A stretch of DNA of 64,000 nt from Hyphomonas sp. CY54-11-8. Lineage in GTDB: Bacteria > Pseudomonadota > Alphaproteobacteria > Caulobacterales > Hyphomonadaceae. Shown piece by piece: positions 40,097-48,682 of this stretch. The notes under the pieces are model-generated. The model was not told the DNA's origin and made no database searches. It saw nothing but the letters and a program-made list of their open reading frames with translations. The stretch's first letter is position 1, and every line of letters starts with the position of its first letter. The stretch covers positions 62,001 to 126,000 of the forward strand of contig NZ_AWFD01000023.1 of the NCBI RefSeq assembly GCF_000682735.1, in the 5' to 3' direction. The position numbers and the translations under genes are program-made.

Positions 40097-40133
40097 GATG
40101 GCCGGTCAAACGTTTCCGTTGGGTCATTCCGGC

Positions 40134-40832
40134 CTATTCTTTTGGTATTTCCGCGTGCATAGTCAAAGGACGTACATGTTGCAGACGACGACTGGATTTG
40201 GTGGCGGTTTCGCGGCTTTCCCCGGCCTCGATCGCAGCCTTGATATCCGCCTCTGCACGCATGTGAATTTCGGCGTCGTGAATGATCTGCGCCGCATGTT
40301 CCTGCGGCAGCACAACCACGCCATCCTCGTCTCCCAGGATCAGGTCGCCCGGCCGGATTTCCACGTCGCCCCAGATGCCGGGAAGCGTCACCGGACGGTT
40401 CATGGCCGTGTATTTCCATTTCCTGTGCGCATTGATGGGCGAGGCGTACCGGCACCAGACTGGAACCGGCCCATCTACCAGCGCCTCACGGTCGCGAACA
40501 CCGCCATCCAGCAGGAAACCACGGGCGCCAGCACGCACCATGCTCGTCACCATGTTGTCTCCGATGATCGCACCCTTGTCGCATCCATTGGTCGCGATCA
40601 CCACGACCGCACCGGGCGTTACCAGGTCATCAAGCTCGAATGTGGGAATGGCGGGCTGGCCGCCCCCTTCCCCGCCTTCTGCACACAACGCGACGCCCGC
40701 CATTTTCGCGGCGCCAAGCGGGCGAAGGTCCGCAGCAAGCACCTGTGTCTCCAGCCCCATCGCGACCAGGACGTCTGCAATCGCCGCGGCTTCCAGTTCA
40801 GAAAGCCGCACCCACAATGGCTCTTCCGTCAT
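40134..40832 (-). CDS. RraA-like aldolase/decarboxylase family protein
   Basis: A 232-residue member of the RraA fold that includes 4-hydroxy-4-methyl-2-oxoglutarate/4-carboxy-4-hydroxy-2-oxoadipate aldolases and oxaloacetate decarboxylases. The core IIGDNMVTSMVRAGARGFLL followed by DGGVRD carries the phosphate/substrate arginine and metal Asp, with VEIRPGDLILGDEDGVVVLP downstream. Such enzymes cleave oxo-acids to pyruvate; RraA proper lacks catalytic residues. ATG 40832 has GGGAGGAACC upstream. Divergent from the kinase/enolase-like operon, making a joint pathway plausible. Confidence 0.85.
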   Translation of the reverse strand: MTEEPLWVRLSELEAAAIADVLVAMGLETQVLAADLRPLGAAKMAGVALCAEGGEGGGQPAIPTFELDDLVTPGAVVVIATNGCDKGAIIGDNMVTSMVRAGARGFLLDGGVRDREALVDGPVPVWCRYASPINAHRKWKYTAMNRPVTLPGIWGDVEIRPGDLILGDEDGVVVLPQEHAAQIIHDAEIHMRAEADIKAAIEAGESRETATKSSRRLQHVRPLTMHAEIPKE

Positions 40833-40919: not shown

Positions 40920-41987
40920 ATGGCGGCGCCGGAGCAAATTCTGGGCACAGGCGAGGAGCGCACAATTCCAAACGTACCAGCCCCCATCTGCAAAGCGCTC
41001 CGGGAGCTGGGGCTGACACACGCCACAGGACAACTTTTCGGCGAGCCCCTGAGCGGCGGCGTTTCATGCGATATCTGGCGCGTTGACCTGCCAGAGGGGC
41101 CTGTCTGCGCCAAAAGAGCACTCGCGAAACTGAAAGTTGCCGGTGAGTGGTTTGCCCCTACCAGCCGTATTGATTTTGAAGCGGCCTATTACCGGTTTGC
41201 GCGCACAGTCGCACCAGGCGTGACACCGGAAGTTCTGGGGCATGATCCTTCACGCGGTGTTCTGGTCACGGAATACCTCCCATCATCGGAATACACGGCC
41301 TGGAAGGAAGAATTGCAGAACGGGGTTATCCGGACAGACCTTGTCCGGCAACTCGCCCTGGCGCTTCGGCGCCTGCATGATGCCAGCCTTGCAGACTCCC
41401 AGGTGCACGCGGCCTTCACCCAACCCGACCTGATCCATGCCCTGCGCCTGTCCCCTTACTTCCTGGCAAGCGTTCCAGCGAACCCGGAACTCGAACACGA
41501 ACTCACAGGACTCGTGAAGCTGTTTGAGGAAAATCGCCACTGGCTGATCCACGGGGACTTCAGTCCAAAGAACATTCTTTTCGGCCGGGACCACCCGGTG
41601 ATCCTTGATGCAGAATGTGCCAATACCGGCGATGCGGCCTTCGACCTTGCCTTCTGCAGCGCGCACCTCTGCCTGAAGGCTGCCTGGAAGCCGCAGCACG
41701 CCTCCAAATACAAAGCGGCCTTTGACACCTTCCATACAAACTACTTCGCAGCCGGTACCGATCACGACCTGGACGCCCGCGCAGCAAGATACCTGTCCGG
41801 TTTCCTGCTCGCCCGCATGGATGGGAAGTCTCCGGTTGAGTACATCACCGCCCCTACCGACAAGGCGGCCATAAGAAATTTTGCCTGGAACCATCTGAAG
41901 CAAGCGGCAACTTCTCTGCGCGCTTTGGCCGACGAATGGTTCTCCGACTGGGCGCCCCATTCCGATAAAGGAGAGACACAAGCGTGA
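40920..41987 (+). CDS. APH/choline-kinase-family small-molecule kinase
   Basis: A 355-residue protein-kinase-like phosphotransferase. The catalytic Brenner motif is HGDFSPKN (His211, Asp213, Asn218) and the metal Asp230 follows in ILDAE; the N-terminal lobe has an LSGGVSCDIWRV nucleotide-loop and a conserved Lys in VCAKRAL. Family members phosphorylate hydroxyl groups of antibiotics, choline, sugars or hydroxy acids. Its stop overlaps the enolase-like start by four bases (GTGA), implying coupled translation and a shared pathway rather than drug resistance. ATG 40920 is the best start; the longer upstream frame is antisense to the RraA-like gene. Confidence 0.82.
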   Translation: MAAPEQILGTGEERTIPNVPAPICKALRELGLTHATGQLFGEPLSGGVSCDIWRVDLPEGPVCAKRALAKLKVAGEWFAPTSRIDFEAAYYRFARTVAPGVTPEVLGHDPSRGVLVTEYLPSSEYTAWKEELQNGVIRTDLVRQLALALRRLHDASLADSQVHAAFTQPDLIHALRLSPYFLASVPANPELEHELTGLVKLFEENRHWLIHGDFSPKNILFGRDHPVILDAECANTGDAAFDLAFCSAHLCLKAAWKPQHASKYKAAFDTFHTNYFAAGTDHDLDARAARYLSGFLLARMDGKSPVEYITAPTDKAAIRNFAWNHLKQAATSLRALADEWFSDWAPHSDKGETQA

Positions 41988-43267
41988 GCCACCTCGACAT
42001 CGCATCCATGGAAGGCCGTCAGGTCTGGGACAGCCGCGGGCGGCCGACTATCGAAGTCGAAATCCGGCTATCGAATGGTGCCGTCGGACGCGCCATCGCT
42101 CCTGCGGGAGCCTCCACCGGCGCAGGCGAAGCACTGGACCTTCGGGACGGCGGCGCGGCATTCGGTGGTTATGGCGTATCAGAGGCCATGGCCGGTCTTC
42201 GGAACGAGATCATTCCTGTACTGATCGGATTGCCGGCCGACCAGCAGGAACTTGTCGATGGCACGCTTGAGGCGCTCGACGGAACGCCACAGCTCAGCCG
42301 TCTTGGCGGCAATGCGCTGATCGCAACATCGCTCGCCATCGCGCATGCAGCAGCCGCCGGACGGGATGAGCCGCTCTGGTCCTATTTCGCCATGGGCGAC
42401 GCTCCGCTGATTCCGGTTCCGGAAATACAAATCTTCGGCGGCGGCGCGCACGCCGCGGGGGCCATGGACCTGCAGGATTTCATGGTGGTTCCTTTCGGCG
42501 CGTCCAGCTTCCGGGAAGCACTCGAATGGGTTGCTGAAATCTATCTTGCGGCCGGAGATCTGGTCGCGCGGAGGGGGGCAAGCGTAGGTGTGGCGGACGA
42601 AGGGGGCTATTGGCCGGTGTTCGACAGCAATGAACAGGCACTGGACGCCCTGCTCATCAGTATCGAGAAAGCCGGATTTGATCCGGAGACACAGGTCGGC
42701 ATGTCGATCGATGTCGCCGCCAACCAGTTTTTCCGCGATGGATCCTACATTCTGAAAGCAGAAGGCCGGGCCCTCTCGACGGAAGAATGGTACGATCAGG
42801 TCGCTGGCTGGGTGCGATCCTATCCGATTGCGATGATCGAGGATCCTTTCACCGAAGACGATCACACCTCCCACCAGAAATTCACAGTCGAGTTCAAAGA
42901 TAGAACACAGATTGTGGGAGACGACCTACTCGTCACCAATCGCGTGAATGTAGAAACGGCGATCGCAGACGGTTCTTGCACAGCCCTGCTCTGCAAGCCG
43001 AACCAGGCGGGCACCCTGACCCGGACAAAGAATGCCTTCGATGCAGCAAAGGCCGCTGGAATGGGCACAATCGTCTCTGCCCGGTCTGGCGAAAGTGAAG
43101 ATACGACGATCGCCCATCTCAGCGTCGGCTGGGCGTCTGGCCAGTTCAAGGTCGGCTCATTCACACGATCGGAACGCATGGCGAAATGGAATGAAATGCT
43201 GAGGATCGAGGAATCTCTCGGCGCCAGGGCAAAATATGCTGGAGGGTCAGTCCTTGGCCGAAATTAA
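41984..43267 (+). CDS. Enolase-family paralogue with altered active site
   Basis: A 427-residue protein clearly homologous to enolase along its length: GRQVWDSRGRPTIEVEI, PAGASTG (Ser44), GGGAHAAG (His156), ADEGGYWP (Glu206), metal ligands Asp243, Glu286 and Asp313, CKPNQAGTLT (Lys338) and GQFKVGSFTRSERMAKW (Lys389). Two positions differ from enolase: the QEFM glutamate (E. coli Glu168) is Asp165, and the SHRSGE histidine (E. coli His370) is Ala366. It is therefore unlikely to be the housekeeping enolase. GTG 41984 overlaps the kinase stop; a GntR gene overlaps its 3' end. I infer dehydration or a related elimination on a phosphorylated acid made by the kinase. Confidence 0.88.
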   Translation: MSHLDIASMEGRQVWDSRGRPTIEVEIRLSNGAVGRAIAPAGASTGAGEALDLRDGGAAFGGYGVSEAMAGLRNEIIPVLIGLPADQQELVDGTLEALDGTPQLSRLGGNALIATSLAIAHAAAAGRDEPLWSYFAMGDAPLIPVPEIQIFGGGAHAAGAMDLQDFMVVPFGASSFREALEWVAEIYLAAGDLVARRGASVGVADEGGYWPVFDSNEQALDALLISIEKAGFDPETQVGMSIDVAANQFFRDGSYILKAEGRALSTEEWYDQVAGWVRSYPIAMIEDPFTEDDHTSHQKFTVEFKDRTQIVGDDLLVTNRVNVETAIADGSCTALLCKPNQAGTLTRTKNAFDAAKAAGMGTIVSARSGESEDTTIAHLSVGWASGQFKVGSFTRSERMAKWNEMLRIEESLGARAKYAGGSVLGRN

Positions 43268-43919
43268 CCCCTCCCCCACGCCTCAATCACGCCCCTTGTC
43301 GGAAGATGCCTACGAGCAGCTTGAGGAACTCATTGTCACGATGGAACTCGCTCCGGGCACGCTGGTGACGGAGCAGGAACTTGCCCAGCGCATCGGGTTG
43401 GGCCGCACGCCCGTCCGGGAAGCGGTCTTACGCCTCTCGAAAGAATACCTGATCCTGATCATGCCCCGCCGCGGCCTCAGGATCGCACCGATTGATATCC
43501 GCCAGCAATTGCGGCTGGTTGAAACCCGGCGCGCATTGGAGGTTCTTGTTGCAAGCCATGCAGCCGAGCGCGCCAATCGGCAGGAACGTGCAGTGTTCCA
43601 GTCTCTCGCGAAATCATTCCGGAATGATGGGCGGAAAAGCTACCGCCGATTCCTCAAGATCGACCAGAAATTCAATATGGCGGTCGCCGCCGCCTGCGAC
43701 AACGAGTTCGCCGTCAACGCGCTTGGATCCCTACACGGACTTTCTCGCCGCTTCTGGCACTATTATGCCGGACATGAAGACGACCTCGGTCTGGTTGCCG
43801 AAATGCATGCTGAGGTCGCCGAGGCTATCGCGGTGGGCGACGTAAAACGCGTTACCGAAGGTGTGACAGCCCACATGAATTACATCCAGGCATTCACGCG
43901 CGCGATGCTGAAGGACTGA
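43236..43919 (+). CDS. GntR-family (FadR/FCD type) regulator
   Basis: A 227-residue regulator: winged HTH (about residues 22-85) with DAYEQLEELIVTMELAPG and IGLGRTPVREAVLRL, then an all-helical FCD effector domain (about 95-220) with LVETRRALEVLVASHAA and conserved FLKIDQKFNMAV and MHAEVAEAI metal/ligand residues. FCD regulators usually sense small carboxylic acids of the pathway they control. It overlaps the enolase-like gene by 32 bases; a TTG at 43254 with GGAGGG seven bases upstream is a strong alternative start. It probably regulates the kinase/enolase-like operon. Confidence 0.88.
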   Translation: MLEGQSLAEINPSPTPQSRPLSEDAYEQLEELIVTMELAPGTLVTEQELAQRIGLGRTPVREAVLRLSKEYLILIMPRRGLRIAPIDIRQQLRLVETRRALEVLVASHAAERANRQERAVFQSLAKSFRNDGRKSYRRFLKIDQKFNMAVAAACDNEFAVNALGSLHGLSRRFWHYYAGHEDDLGLVAEMHAEVAEAIAVGDVKRVTEGVTAHMNYIQAFTRAMLKD

Positions 43920-43929
43920 GGGGTTCAAG

Positions 43930-44871
43930 ATGATCAAGGTGCTCTTCCACTATGAAGCGGGCCCGAACCTGCTCGCAAAGCTTGATGCACTCAAGGACCA
44001 GAATATCGACGTGACCTGTTGCGACCAGTCAGACGACAAAAAGTTTGACGCGCTTCTGCGGGAGACCGACGTGCTGTGGCACGTGCTCCGTCCGGTCACG
44101 GCCCATCATATAGCCCGTGCACCATCGCTGAAACTGGTTCAGAAGATCGGCGTGGGAGTAAACACGATAGATCTGGAGGCCGCAAAAGCGTACGACGTTG
44201 CTGTCTGTAACATGCCCGGAACGAATAGCCGGGCTGTCGCGGAAATGACGCTTCTGCTGATCCTCTCGGCGCTCAGACTCCAGCCGCGTCTCGACGCCCT
44301 TTGCCGCAGCGGGCAATGGATTCCGGATGAGACGACGCGGGAATCTCTCCAGGAATTGCATGGCAAGACTGTCGGCCTCGTCGGCTTTGGAGACATTCCC
44401 AGACTGCTCGCGCCTATTCTGGAGTTCATGGGCGCAAAGGTGATCTATGCGTCGCGGTCAAAAAAGGACGTGCCGTATACGCATGTCTCGCTCGACACGC
44501 TGATCTCGCAATCCGACATCGTCTCGCTGCACATCCCGCTCAACGAAGACACCCCCCACACAATAGGCGCTAATGAGCTCAGCTGCATGAAGCGCGGCGC
44601 AGTCCTGATCAACACAGCACGCGGCGGACTGGTCGATGAAAGCGCGCTCTACGCTGCACTCAGCTCAGGACATCTGAAAAGCGCCGGTCTGGACGTGTTT
44701 GATCCCGAACCTGCCGCCGGCACAAACCCGCTGTTCCAGCTCGACAATGTTATCCCGGCGCCGCACATCGCCTGGCTCACCAACGAAACATTCGACCGCA
44801 GCCTCGAAGTTGCGGTCGCCAACACGCTGGCTGCCGTCCACGGACAGCCCCTCCGCCACCGTGTGGCCTGA
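43930..44871 (+). CDS. NAD-dependent D-2-hydroxyacid dehydrogenase
   Basis: A 313-residue member of the SerA/D-lactate dehydrogenase family. The Rossmann motif is VGLVGFGDIPRLLAP (a GxGxxP variant), and the catalytic residues are Arg in NTARGGLVDE, Glu in DVFDPEP and His in PAPHIAWLT. It would oxidise a 2-hydroxyacid or reduce a 2-oxoacid. GAGGGG lies upstream and the gap to the GntR gene is 10 bases. In this context it could handle the hydroxy/oxo acid formed by the enolase-like step. Confidence 0.9.
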   Translation: MIKVLFHYEAGPNLLAKLDALKDQNIDVTCCDQSDDKKFDALLRETDVLWHVLRPVTAHHIARAPSLKLVQKIGVGVNTIDLEAAKAYDVAVCNMPGTNSRAVAEMTLLLILSALRLQPRLDALCRSGQWIPDETTRESLQELHGKTVGLVGFGDIPRLLAPILEFMGAKVIYASRSKKDVPYTHVSLDTLISQSDIVSLHIPLNEDTPHTIGANELSCMKRGAVLINTARGGLVDESALYAALSSGHLKSAGLDVFDPEPAAGTNPLFQLDNVIPAPHIAWLTNETFDRSLEVAVANTLAAVHGQPLRHRVA

Positions 44872-44903
44872 ACAAGATAATACAAAAAGAGGAAACACCG
44901 CCC

Positions 44904-46241
44904 ATGGCGACCGAACACCAAGCACCTGTTGCAAGATCCGGCTTCTATGCCTGGTATGCTGTCATCATTCTGATGCTGGCCCAAACGGTTTCCTTCATTG
45001 ACCGAATGATCATGGGCCTGCTGGTGGGTCCCATCCGTCAGTCCTTCGATATTTCGGACACGCAATACAGCCTACTTGCCGGATTTGCTTTCGCCATTTT
45101 CTACTCGATCATGGGGATCCCGCTGGCGCGCATCGCAGACCGAAGCAGCCGCAAACACCTGATCGCGATCGCCATCACATTCTGGAGCATCATGACCACG
45201 CTGTGCGGTATGGCGAAGGGATTCACTTCCCTGTTTATCGCGCGCATCGGTGTCGGCGTCGGCGAAGCTGTCCTGTCACCAGCGGCCTATTCCATCATCA
45301 CGGACTATTTCGAGAAGAAGTCTCTCGCCCGGGCGCTCAGCGTCTACACACTCGGCGTAACGATCGGCTCGGGCCTTGCCTATGTCATCGGTGGATGGGT
45401 TGTAACGATCGCGATGAACGCGGGTACGGTCGTCCTGCCAATGATCGGTGAACGTGAAGGGTGGCAGCTTACCTTCTTCCTCGTTGGTCTGCCCGGATTG
45501 CTGGTTACCTTCCTGGTTCTCCTGATCCGTGAACCCGGACGCCGGGGACTGATAGAGACGGAAACTTCCAAGAAAGGCGTTTCGCTGAAAGACGCGCTGA
45601 AATTCGTCATCAGCCGAAAGCGCGCCTTGTTCACGCATATTCTGGGCGTTTCTCTCTTCGTCATGGTCGTGTTCAGCCTGAACATCTGGGGGCCTGAATA
45701 CCTGATGAGGACGTTCTCCTTTTCTCGCGGAGATGCCGGTCGCACGTTTGGCGTTCTGATGATGATCGCCGGCACCACAGGCCTGCTGACTGGCGGCGCC
45801 CTTGGAGACCGCTGGTTCGCCAAGGGAATTCCCGATGCCTATAGCCGGGTGATCCTGTTTTCGATGGCTGGGATGTGGCCATTCGTCGTTGCGCTCGGCT
45901 TCGTCAGCACACCCTTGCTCGGCCTGATCTGTCTATCGGTTGCGGTTTTCTTCTCTGCTTTTCAGGGCGGCATCGCCGGCGGCCTGATACAGCTGATGGC
46001 GCCGAACCAGCTCCGTGGGCAGACCGTTGCGCTCTACTTCCTGGTCGCGAACTTCATTGGGATGGGACTCGGGCCCACAGTGGTGGCGAGCGCAACAGAC
46101 TATGTGTTCCACAGCGACGCCGCCCTCAACAAATCGCTCGCCCTGTGCGGCGGGATTGTGATCCCGCTCGCCGGGCTGATCATGCTCTGGGGTTTGCCGG
46201 CGATCCGGAAAGCCGTTGAGGAAGCCAGGACCTGGGAATAG
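44904..46241 (+). CDS. MFS transporter
   Basis: A 445-residue major-facilitator protein with twelve hydrophobic segments. The loop 2-3 signature PLARIADRSSRKHLI matches the MFS G-x-x-x-D-R-x-G-R-R pattern loosely, and the N-terminal DRMIMGLLVGPI with NxxQ-like LAGFAFAIFY resembles the spinster-like/anion-cation symporter groups used for carboxylates. Separated from the dehydrogenase by 32 bases with AGAGGAAA upstream, it likely imports or exports the acid used by this operon. Confidence 0.9.
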   Translation: MATEHQAPVARSGFYAWYAVIILMLAQTVSFIDRMIMGLLVGPIRQSFDISDTQYSLLAGFAFAIFYSIMGIPLARIADRSSRKHLIAIAITFWSIMTTLCGMAKGFTSLFIARIGVGVGEAVLSPAAYSIITDYFEKKSLARALSVYTLGVTIGSGLAYVIGGWVVTIAMNAGTVVLPMIGEREGWQLTFFLVGLPGLLVTFLVLLIREPGRRGLIETETSKKGVSLKDALKFVISRKRALFTHILGVSLFVMVVFSLNIWGPEYLMRTFSFSRGDAGRTFGVLMMIAGTTGLLTGGALGDRWFAKGIPDAYSRVILFSMAGMWPFVVALGFVSTPLLGLICLSVAVFFSAFQGGIAGGLIQLMAPNQLRGQTVALYFLVANFIGMGLGPTVVASATDYVFHSDAALNKSLALCGGIVIPLAGLIMLWGLPAIRKAVEEARTWE

Positions 46242-46251
46242 AGGCCGGAGC

Positions 46252-48105
46252 CTAGCGCGTGGGCAGATGCCAGATCGGCGATGCCCACGCATGTTCCTGT
46301 ATCATGACGTCGGCATCCGGGAATTCTTCGCAACGTCCCGCTTCCTGGCACAGATAAGAAGACCATCTGGGAGTCGGGACTTCGGTCACCCGTGCATACC
46401 AGTATGAAGGGGCTTCAGGATCGAAATCCGGGTCAGACCAGACCACACATGCGTTCGCTTCGCCTGCTTCGCTCGTCCAGACCGGAATGACCGCTTCTTC
46501 ATATCTGTCACCAGACAGCGAGCCTTTGATGACCTCGATTTTTTGCAGAGGGGCCTTGTCGCCTGTTACGGCGACCCGGAACGTCGCTGTCTGGCTGGCC
46601 TCCGGCAAGACGCTGCCCATGGACGTGCTGCCAGCAACCGGTGCAAGGGCGCCACCTGCCAAACAGGCAGGCACCTCCCCTCCTGCCGAAGCATCAAAGC
46701 GCAGCGCGATCCGTGGACCACTCGTGGCATAGGTTTCCCGGTTTTTCAGCGCGTTGAAGATGTCGTCGCGTGTGTTCTGCTCCGCCCAGACAGCAACGAG
46801 GCCACCGGGATTGAAGCCTATCCGACTCATATTGCGTTCGAAGTTTCCGATGCCAAACACCGTTCCCTGCCATTGGTCTTCTTCCACATAACCACCCAGC
46901 CCGGTGTGACTGTCAGTCGAGCCGATAAAGCCGACCTGCAACGGATTGCCTTCGGCATCCTGCCGGTTGGCATAGGTTATCAACCCGCGTCGCAGGAGCC
47001 CCCGTGCATAGGTCGAGCGCATCTGCTCCCACTCTTCTTCTTCGAAATCCGCGAGCGGTTTCGGTCTGGAGTGAGACGTAATGTAGTTTTCATAGCTGCA
47101 ATCCGCCGAAGTTTCGCGGTCTGCATATTCCGGCAGGCATTCGCTGGTGCCTTTTTCCTGCGTGATTTCCACCAGGCGCTCATAGCGCGTTCTCAACGCC
47201 AGCGTACGTTCGCTTTCCGTCTCAACGTCAAAGCTCTTGCCGTCTCCCATATTCATGTTGTGCGCGATTGTAATGGCGTCGCACCCATCCTCAGCCCGGC
47301 ATCCCGCCTCAAGCTTGGAATAGAGCTGGTCGATTTCAGGAAAGCGGAGATAATCGACCGGAGTGGGCGTCACCTTGTCGCTCGCAAAGATGATGTTCCG
47401 ATGCGTGTGGGAGTAATTCGGTGTGGCCGACCACTCAAACCCGTTCAGCGCCGTGAATGTGCACGGATCATCTGCTTCATTGGTCTGCTGCTGCAACCGC
47501 TCCCATTGGCTGAGCAATGCGCTGTCACATGCAGCTGGGTCTTCTGTGCAGATATCTGCCTTCGCAGGCTGCGCTTGTGTCAGCGTCGGGTTCACAAAAT
47601 CCCGGAAAACAGTTGCCCCGGTTTCCTGAGTGCTCTGGTCTCGAAGCTTCACGCAGTATGGATGCGCCGACATACGCGGGTCGGTGCAGGTATACATAAG
47701 GTCCAGCCATTCGGCATGGTCGGTCACCGCCATGAAATCGAGCGGGCGGTCGAGCTTCACCTCTCCTGCCGGTGACCCCACAGGGTTTCCTTTTGCGAAC
47801 CGGTAGGCTTCCGCCGGCGTGCGCAGCGTCCCGAACCCATACGCATCGAGTGAATACGCCGTATGGACATGCAGGTCGCCCCAGAACACCTGCTTGTGCC
47901 CGGGGCTGTAGCCCGGGCAGCTCACCTCTACGGAGTCAGCCGAGTCGGCGTCGACGGAGGCAATCCCGCTATCCGATAGGTTCCCGGCCGATGGGGTCCC
48001 GGACTGGCTGCACCCAGCCAGTACAAAGCTTGTACCAATCAACGCGATCATGCCGAAGGGCTTGCCGGAGGCCCGCCCTTCCCGTCTCGTTCTATCCGCA
48101 GTCAT
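46252..48105 (-). CDS. DUF3604 lipoprotein with PHP-like metal motifs
   Basis: A 617-residue lipoprotein (FVLAGCSQSG, lipobox Cys about residue 33) of the DUF3604 family. Metal-type motifs appear in order: FWGDLHVHTAYS, FMAVTDHAEW, TIAHNMNMGDG and FIGSTDSHTGLGG, the arrangement of PHP-like phosphoesterases. DUF3604 proteins are abundant in marine heterotrophs near TonB receptors and catabolic genes; activity is not established as far as I know. ATG 48105 begins four bases after the VOC gene stop, so both are one transcript. The frame to 48204 is antisense-free but overlaps the VOC gene. Confidence 0.85.
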   Translation of the reverse strand: MTADRTRREGRASGKPFGMIALIGTSFVLAGCSQSGTPSAGNLSDSGIASVDADSADSVEVSCPGYSPGHKQVFWGDLHVHTAYSLDAYGFGTLRTPAEAYRFAKGNPVGSPAGEVKLDRPLDFMAVTDHAEWLDLMYTCTDPRMSAHPYCVKLRDQSTQETGATVFRDFVNPTLTQAQPAKADICTEDPAACDSALLSQWERLQQQTNEADDPCTFTALNGFEWSATPNYSHTHRNIIFASDKVTPTPVDYLRFPEIDQLYSKLEAGCRAEDGCDAITIAHNMNMGDGKSFDVETESERTLALRTRYERLVEITQEKGTSECLPEYADRETSADCSYENYITSHSRPKPLADFEEEEWEQMRSTYARGLLRRGLITYANRQDAEGNPLQVGFIGSTDSHTGLGGYVEEDQWQGTVFGIGNFERNMSRIGFNPGGLVAVWAEQNTRDDIFNALKNRETYATSGPRIALRFDASAGGEVPACLAGGALAPVAGSTSMGSVLPEASQTATFRVAVTGDKAPLQKIEVIKGSLSGDRYEEAVIPVWTSEAGEANACVVWSDPDFDPEAPSYWYARVTEVPTPRWSSYLCQEAGRCEEFPDADVMIQEHAWASPIWHLPTR

Positions 48106-48109
48106 ACGA

Positions 48110-48682
48110 TCAGGCGTGATAGAATTCTGAGACTTCCCGCTTGTCGAGGGCCTCTGCCCCGAACAGTTCCTCTTTGCGCTTGCGGGTTTTCTCAGTCCAC
48201 TCACGTGTAATCTTCCGCGCGTCAGATTCTTCTTCGTCCAGGATCTTCGTGTAATCTGGCGTGCGGCAGGTGATTTCGCACTGGTAGCCGTTCGGGTCGT
48301 AGAAATAGATCGACTTCACGAAACCATGGTCGACAGGCCCGGCACATTTAATCCGCGCATCCTTGATCTTGCGTTTCCAGACTTCGAGGTCCTCGAGATT
48401 GTCGATTTCGAATGCGACATGGACGTCGAAGCTGTCTTTCTGCTCAAACTGGTCCGGCTTGACCGTGTACGGCTCATCAAAGAACGCGACCATCGATCCA
48501 TCTTCCATTTCGAAGAAGAGGTGCATGTATTCGCGCTTGATGTCCGTGCCGGAGACCTCTTCGAAGGTGAGGGCAGCGCGATACCGCAGTCCGAGCACTT
48601 CTTCATAGAACCAGCGCGTCTGCTCGGCATCGCGGCAGCGGTACGCCGCATGGTGGATGTTGGTCAGCTTCGAGAGAGACAT
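48110..48682 (-). CDS. VOC-fold metalloenzyme (glyoxalase / extradiol dioxygenase type)
   Basis: A 190-residue vicinal-oxygen-chelate protein with two beta-alpha-beta modules. Likely metal ligands are His in NIHHAAYRCRD, His in FDVHVAFEID and Glu in YQCEITCRTP, and it has the FYDPNGYQCEI signature of extradiol dioxygenase/glyoxalase relatives. The long charged C-terminal helix is unusual. ATG 48682 has GGAGGAAATAGCC upstream. It may open an aromatic ring, or act as an isomerase or lyase; the sequence alone does not decide. A candidate MarR site lies 77 bases upstream. Confidence 0.82.
   Translation of the reverse strand: MSLSKLTNIHHAAYRCRDAEQTRWFYEEVLGLRYRAALTFEEVSGTDIKREYMHLFFEMEDGSMVAFFDEPYTVKPDQFEQKDSFDVHVAFEIDNLEDLEVWKRKIKDARIKCAGPVDHGFVKSIYFYDPNGYQCEITCRTPDYTKILDEEESDARKITREWTEKTRKRKEELFGAEALDKREVSEFYHA

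Follow-up and report, generated by a model that had tools for sequence, protein, structure and literature searches.

Why does a bacterium with a canonical enolase gene carry another, altered one that overlaps the gene of a small-molecule kinase? The question arises from a 64,000 nucleotide stretch of Hyphomonas sp. CY54-11-8 (NZ_AWFD01000023.1, positions 62,001 to 126,000; "the window"), which is part of contig C23 in a 38-contig genome of 3.9 Mb. The answer put forward here, tentatively and with somewhat less than even confidence, is an undescribed and horizontally mobile catabolic route of several bacterial phyla and haloarchaea. In this route a new APH-fold kinase (KIN) would phosphorylate the 2-hydroxyl of a (2R)-2,3-dihydroxy acid other than D-glycerate, and a repurposed enolase (ENO) would turn the product into a substituted phosphoenolpyruvate (PEP). 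The two core genes are:

40920..41987, + strand: KIN, APH-fold small-molecule kinase, methylthioribose-kinase-like, with the kinase motifs Lys65, Glu87, HGDFSPKN and ILDAE retained
41984..43267, + strand: ENO, enolase paralogue linked to the kinase, in which Asp165 stands at yeast E168 and Ala366 at yeast H373

Four bases are shared between the genes, the KIN frame ending at 41987 and ENO starting with GTG at 41984. The mechanical open reading frame (ORF) of KIN begins at 40098, and its upstream stretch overlaps a divergent RraA-like gene (40134-40832); a start at 40920 suits the homologues, whose alignments begin approximately 15-30 residues downstream of it. A preliminary description of the window had reported the order kinase, enolase-like, GntR, dehydrogenase, MFS; this order, the coordinates and the overlaps were all correct on re-reading the ORFs, and the KIN-ENO arrangement is confirmed.

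The KIN profile (threshold 1e-30) matched 39 of 385 genomes of the class, the weakest match being 8.8e-90, and ENO is present in 36 of these 39, on a different contig from KIN in three (G139, G216, G355). Over 299 genomes of the phylum the same profile gave seven matches, four of them already in the earlier set. The 30 best matches of an enolase profile over the class genomes (at least 602 bits; the next 583.6) are all located in KIN genomes. Six more KIN-linked enolases (G134, G140, G343, G405, G420 and G349, the last truncated by the contig end) score within or under the canonical range and were recognised from their position. Within the window's genus ENO occurs in 3 of 37 genomes (G000, G004, G018; own included), with KIN adjoining each copy; the pair is therefore accessory there.

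Named genomes were searched by KIN patterns, and the best 80 of the 574 relatives listed were examined. ENO is present in 72 of these 80 loci: on the same strand with aligned ends less than 60 bases apart (63 loci), at 60-200 bases (7), farther (1) or on the opposite strand (1). The loci lacking ENO are L128, L158, L163, L167, L174, L187, L199 and L200; the sequences of L158, L163, L167 and L200 stop within 160 bases past the KIN end. An NTGA stop/start overlap occurs in 62 of 111 same-strand pairs. The co-occurrence search suggested in the preliminary description thus finds the linkage conserved, in the class as well as among the best named loci. Record titles cover Alpha-, Beta- and Gammaproteobacteria, Actinomycetes, Acidobacteria and Chloroflexi, and many belong to metagenome-assembled genomes. 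KIN is also found in 32 plasmid records. In every one of the 14 examined an enolase gene lies close by, directly beside KIN in 8 and on the opposite strand in 6. Among their hosts are Rhizobium, Rhodococcus, Cupriavidus, Sphingobium, Methylobacterium, Roseibium, Paracoccus, Enterobacter, Haladaptatus and Halomarina. KIN and ENO co-vary (114 loci, Mantel r 0.81, a value reached by 0 of 999 permutations), a correlation that would also be expected from shared ancestry. Chance neighbourhood is ruled out by the adjacency and the residue signature recurring across phyla.

The second enolase of the genome, on contig C4, has 41% identity to ENO and is canonical; its absence, together with normal dehydration of 2-phosphoglycerate, had been named earlier as a finding that would speak against a separate role of ENO. 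Its motifs QEF, GDEGG, SHRSGE and KTGS correspond to QDF, ADEGG, SARSGE and KVGS in ENO, which has Asp165 in place of the QEF glutamate and Ala366 in place of the SHRSGE histidine, and retains the metal ligands and both catalytic lysines, Lys338 and Lys389. The alignment agrees with the preliminary description on each of these residues.

The signature was read in 146 enolases, 117 distinct ones from KIN loci or KIN genomes and 29 others; enolases shorter than 330 residues and identical copies had been removed ahead of the count of 117. Three of the 117 are without a listed KIN in their own locus, two (L094, L098) being from KIN genomes on another contig and one (L217) the pair of G405. E168D (yeast numbering) is found in 117 of 117 and H373A in 116, both together in 116; the sole exception, from an Enterobacter plasmid (L017), has Gly at yeast 373 and also misses E211. 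Among the 29 others, 27 possess E and H at these positions, the two odd ones being L228 and L230. S44, H156, D243, E286, D313, K338, R367 and S368 (window numbers) are kept in 117 of 117, K389 in 115 of 115 readable copies and E206 in 116 of 117. In yeast numbering, ENO thus keeps the metal ligands, S39, H159, E211, Lys345/Lys396 and the phosphate-binding R374/S375. Further changes of the ENO clade are G/S152, A204 (C in two copies) and V/I390. In Mycobacterium tuberculosis enolase (PMC10619443), Lys335 serves as the base, Glu204 works on the 3-hydroxyl, Glu163 touches the carboxylate and Arg364 the phosphate; of these, Lys335, Glu204 and Arg364 match sites kept in the KIN-associated enolases.

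A tree built with the trait columns removed (65 of the 146 sequences, 36 KIN-associated and 29 other rows, no archaeal housekeeping enolase, root arbitrary) parts KIN-associated from other enolases, housekeeping copies included as earlier suggested, by a single branch with 98% SH-aLRT support; L017 and L230 form long branches. Separate origins of the D/A signature are disfavoured by this split. The data support ENO as a second, altered enolase copy: it differs from glycolytic enolase (TIGR01060) by E168D, H373A, G/S152, A204 and V/I390, and forms a separate clade tied to KIN beside a canonical copy in the same genome. The wider enolase superfamily is the subject of PMC6946804.

The only Pfam match of KIN is APH (PF01636; 60 bits, cut-off 23.2), and the HGDxxxxN motif and the metal Asp are invariant in alignments of 17 and of 25 rows. 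A Pfam scan of KIN gave neither PF02595 nor PF13660, the domains of glycerate kinase classes I and II. KIN lies far under the methylthioribose kinase cut-off (TIGR01767; 55.8 bits against 275) and shares only 17-18% identity with such kinases, and methionine-salvage genes are absent among the labelled partners in KIN operons. Three glycerate kinase classes, I, II and III, were known in 2007 (PMC2063504), none of APH type. KIN seems to represent a new family of APH-fold kinases.

Further genes of the window locus are as follows:

43236..43919, + strand: GntR/FCD regulator, with GntR and FCD domains
43930..44871, + strand: HADH, D-2-hydroxyacid dehydrogenase, with 2-Hacid_dh domains, the commonest third partner of KIN-ENO
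44904..46241, + strand: MFS carrier (MFS_1), top NCBIfam match D-galactonate transporter subfamily, under the cut-off
40134..40832, - strand: RraA-like/aldolase, divergent neighbour matching the RraA-like family, outside the conserved module
46252-48204, convergent with the MFS gene: DUF3604 protein (Pfam), 650 residues

Pfam and NCBIfam assign the genes of the locus, KIN and ENO included, to APH, Enolase_N plus Enolase_C, GntR plus FCD, 2-Hacid_dh, MFS_1 and RraA-like. The GntR ORF starts at 43236, ahead of the ENO end at 43267; 10 bases separate GntR from HADH and 32 bases HADH from MFS. DUF3604 was called in two of the three loci of the genus, the window and L082, and remained uncalled in L083.

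Operons were defined as same-strand runs with gaps under 150 bases and surveyed in 131 loci with a core gene; counts are approximate, as the gene caller missed KIN in 12 of 80 named loci with a tblastn match, L106 gave no called genes, and three contigs are present in two locus sets (L096/L144, L092/L136, L109/L154). The labelled partners are HADH (37 loci), ApbA (11) and FAH (10), all others occurring in at most five. Of the 122 loci where KIN was called, 54 have HADH at most three genes from it, and only 55 of the 1671 called genes there are HADH. In the window the catalytic and NAD domains of HADH score 95.1 and 185.7 bits, over the cut-offs. ApbA was assigned by a Pfam match for L197, the closest solved relative of which bears the name 2-dehydropantoate 2-reductase, and by similarity to L197 for the other members. 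HADH and ApbA never share an operon; that two unrelated 2-oxo-acid reductases fill one slot argues for a step in which a 2-oxo acid is reduced, or for the opposite reaction. GntR and MFS occur in operons only in the window's genus (three loci each, among the operons compared); an MFS relative lies five genes from KIN in L084. RraA adjoins KIN in the window and in the same-genus loci L004 and L005 (RraA cut by the locus end), and is whole in L083; other matches (L012, L018, L124) lie several genes off and none is inside an operon. RraA, GntR and MFS are accordingly rejected as core parts and regarded as local neighbours. A Pfam scan of 40 neighbours revealed a diverse set and no common carbon source, EamA and DctP occurring twice each; two neighbours, in L088 and L181, gave no Pfam match.

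The reading preferred from these observations is a portable module for catabolism, with KIN and ENO as its core and a 2-oxo-acid reductase as a frequent addition; it is about as likely to be right as wrong. In a first step HADH, or ApbA elsewhere, would reduce a 3-hydroxy-2-oxo acid to a (2R)-2,3-dihydroxy acid, whose 2-hydroxyl KIN would then phosphorylate with ATP. In the third step, as the kept residues suggest, ENO with two Mg2+ would remove the C2 proton through the Lys338/Lys389 pair, and Glu206 would expel the 3-hydroxyl, giving PEP or a 3-substituted PEP, which would enter central metabolism by pyruvate kinase or PEP carboxylase. This mechanism is likely in outline, with a putative substrate other than D-glycerate. 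The acid would be glycerate-like, with C2 in R form in view of the retained lysine pair; the lost E168/H373 side chains, together with the altered positions G/S152, A204 and V/I390, point to a difference from D-2-phosphoglycerate at C3. The preliminary description already envisaged a phosphorylation and then an enolase-type elimination, with the dehydrogenase on the same route, and this appears the best fit. Its tentative inclusion of the RraA-like aldolase is not supported, this gene being outside every operon and KIN-adjacent only in the window's genus, and its step order changes: the dehydrogenase probably makes the hydroxy acid to be phosphorylated rather than handling the elimination product, because ApbA replaces HADH in other loci.

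Several findings weigh against this reading. ENO exceeds the NCBIfam cut-off for glycolytic enolase (TIGR01060; 450.3 bits against 300), a score compatible with ordinary enolase activity. Only 48 of 131 loci have a reductase inside the operon. KIN occurs without ENO in 3 of 39 genomes (G064, G377, G398; two share a genus), which are 99-100% complete and all lack class I and II glycerate kinases; PF13660 is missing in 3 of 3 of them versus 5 of 36 others (chance 0.6%, calculated by hand, two sharing a genus), which hints that KIN can serve plain D-glycerate there. The window genome likewise lacks glycerate kinases of class I and II (class III was not searched). PEP carboxylase, inside the operon in three Rhizobium loci and nearby in L011 (locus cut) and L012, counts in favour of the module, yet its place inside the operon fits plain PEP as product.

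The best surviving alternative is a D-glycerate module with HADH as hydroxypyruvate reductase, KIN as a glycerate 2-kinase whose APH type would add a fourth class to that activity, and ENO as an isozyme acting on D-2-phosphoglycerate and yielding PEP, followed by oxaloacetate where PEP carboxylase is near, like the second half of the serine cycle. We consider it unlikely. The Rhizobium loci hold PEP carboxylase, HADH, KIN and ENO together (as a gene set, ENO being on the opposite strand), the nearest solved HADH relatives include glycerate dehydrogenase/glyoxylate reductase, and the three KIN-only genomes have neither class I nor class II glycerate kinase. The FAH gene beside the Roseibium pair has 2,4-didehydro-3-deoxy-L-rhamnonate hydrolase as top match (342 bits, cut-off 500), and FAH chemistry on a hexonate would give pyruvate and glycerate. 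However, a second enolase is present in 34 of the 36 genomes with both genes (1e-150; the other two, G313 and G349, are 63% and 78% complete), canonical in all ten whose copy was read, and class II glycerate 2-kinase (PF13660) in 31 of the 36, a count that covers KIN genomes alone; class I occurs in 1 of 39 KIN genomes. D-glycerate can therefore already reach PEP in most of these genomes, a redundancy that the window's own genome does not show for glycerate kinases of class I and II. An isozyme of the same reaction would also not be expected to fix E168D and H373A in 116 of 117 copies.

A module for L-glycerate, or another S-configured acid, would account for the need of a separate enolase: KIN would phosphorylate the 2-hydroxyl of the opposite C2 enantiomer, and a reshaped ENO would dehydrate the product. 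The altered residues lie on what we take to be the side opposite the lysine pair, which counts in its favour, and FAH cleavage of L-series hexonates would free L-glycerate. It is nevertheless improbable, as no readable copy has lost Lys338 or Lys389, which argues for the same C2 face, and D-2-hydroxyacid dehydrogenases and ketopantoate reductases normally yield R products. Equally little probability is given to an ATP-driven dehydratase by analogy with lanthipeptide kinase-lyase pairs, where KIN would phosphorylate the 3-hydroxyl as leaving group and ENO take the C2 proton and expel phosphate: Arg367, Ser368 and Ser44 in 117 of 117 copies and Glu206 in 116 fit a 2-phosphate and a leaving hydroxyl. 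That ENO is dead or non-metabolic (regulatory, scaffold, moonlighting) and KIN works alone would agree with two lost active-site side chains, but is very improbable, metal ligands, lysines and the phosphate pair being fixed across phyla where dead enzymes usually drift.

The genomic contexts of the KIN-ENO pair differ between hosts. In the window's genus it is accompanied by acyl-CoA ligases, a hydrolase, RraA, GntR, HADH and MFS. Rhizobium has LysR, PEP carboxylase, HADH and KIN on one strand and an extradiol-type dioxygenase, ENO, a cupin and an amino-acid-type ABC carrier on the other. Rhodococcus has FAH, HADH, overlapping ENO and KIN, then FAH; Roseibium and Paracoccus have LacI, KIN, ENO, FAH, SDR and a sugar ABC carrier; haloarchaea have KIN, ENO, a cupin, then KARI-like and mandelate-racemase-type genes. 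The context types are thus sugar (Roseibium, Paracoccus), extradiol-dioxygenase (Rhizobium, Rhodococcus, Sphingobium) and sugar-acid (haloarchaea), a variety that fits a common end segment leading into central metabolism.

The predicted order of steps (glycerate-type acid, 2-phosphate, phosphoenol) resembles that of class II glycerate 2-kinase (DUF4147/MOFRL) and enolase in the serine cycle and the non-phosphorylated Entner-Doudoroff pathway, but KIN is of another family and the ENO active site is altered; the PEP carboxylase near KIN-ENO in Rhizobium recalls the gene set of the serine-cycle segment. The LxmK/LxmY dehydratase shares a kinase (LxmK fold) followed by an elimination. Carboxyphosphonoenolpyruvate synthase of phosphinothricin synthesis is an enolase homologue with a different substrate. 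To our knowledge LxmY is no enolase, neither of these two systems pairs an APH-fold kinase with an enolase, and enolase is generally regarded as a single-substrate enzyme. No description of the pair was found in open-licence PMC literature (narrow terms; titles and abstract openings). Enolases and APH-fold kinases as such are known; what appears new is a kinase family and, linked with it, an altered clade of enolases. In the annotated plasmid records examined, ENO is mostly labelled phosphopyruvate hydratase and KIN aminoglycoside phosphotransferase, and a module of about one tenth of the sampled class genomes (39/385) may hide behind two wrong names. If the proposed route is true, a few substitutions re-tuned a glycolytic active site, the 2-kinases acting on glycerate-like acids gain a new structural class, an unknown carbon source comes to light, and the dehydration to a substituted PEP would give enolase proper a second catabolic substrate.

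Some other enolase loci deserve mention. The Enterobacter chuandaensis plasmid L017 (NZ_CP097174.1, 8250-18883) possesses a far more divergent enolase, annotated as hypothetical protein, which points away from its APH kinase and lies beside U32 peptidase, NAD oxidoreductase, aminotransferase, metallopeptidase and MFS genes; it looks like a biosynthetic cluster built on the same kinase-enolase pair. A kinase match is found on an E. hormaechei plasmid too. On an Agrobacterium cucumeris plasmid (L230, NZ_CP080389.1, 4569-7263) DUF4147, the class II glycerate 2-kinase family, is located directly upstream of a divergent enolase with Ser for E211 and Gly for H373, by its sequence a second, independent kinase-enolase pairing. 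The enolase of a Rhodococcus qingshengii plasmid (L227, NZ_CP054209.1, 2727-6507) has E168, E211 and H373, stands beside two CrcB fluoride exporters and MFS, and may be a spare copy in a fluoride-resistance island. A Cupriavidus pinatubonensis plasmid (L229, NZ_CP080769.1, 1078-7256) holds PEP carboxylase, an enolase of canonical signature, 3-oxo-tetronate kinase and 3-oxo-tetronate 4-phosphate decarboxylase in a row. In L104 (10389-14096) and L105, of the same genus, a large TPP-enzyme-like protein and a POR/DUF6537 protein directly follow ENO.

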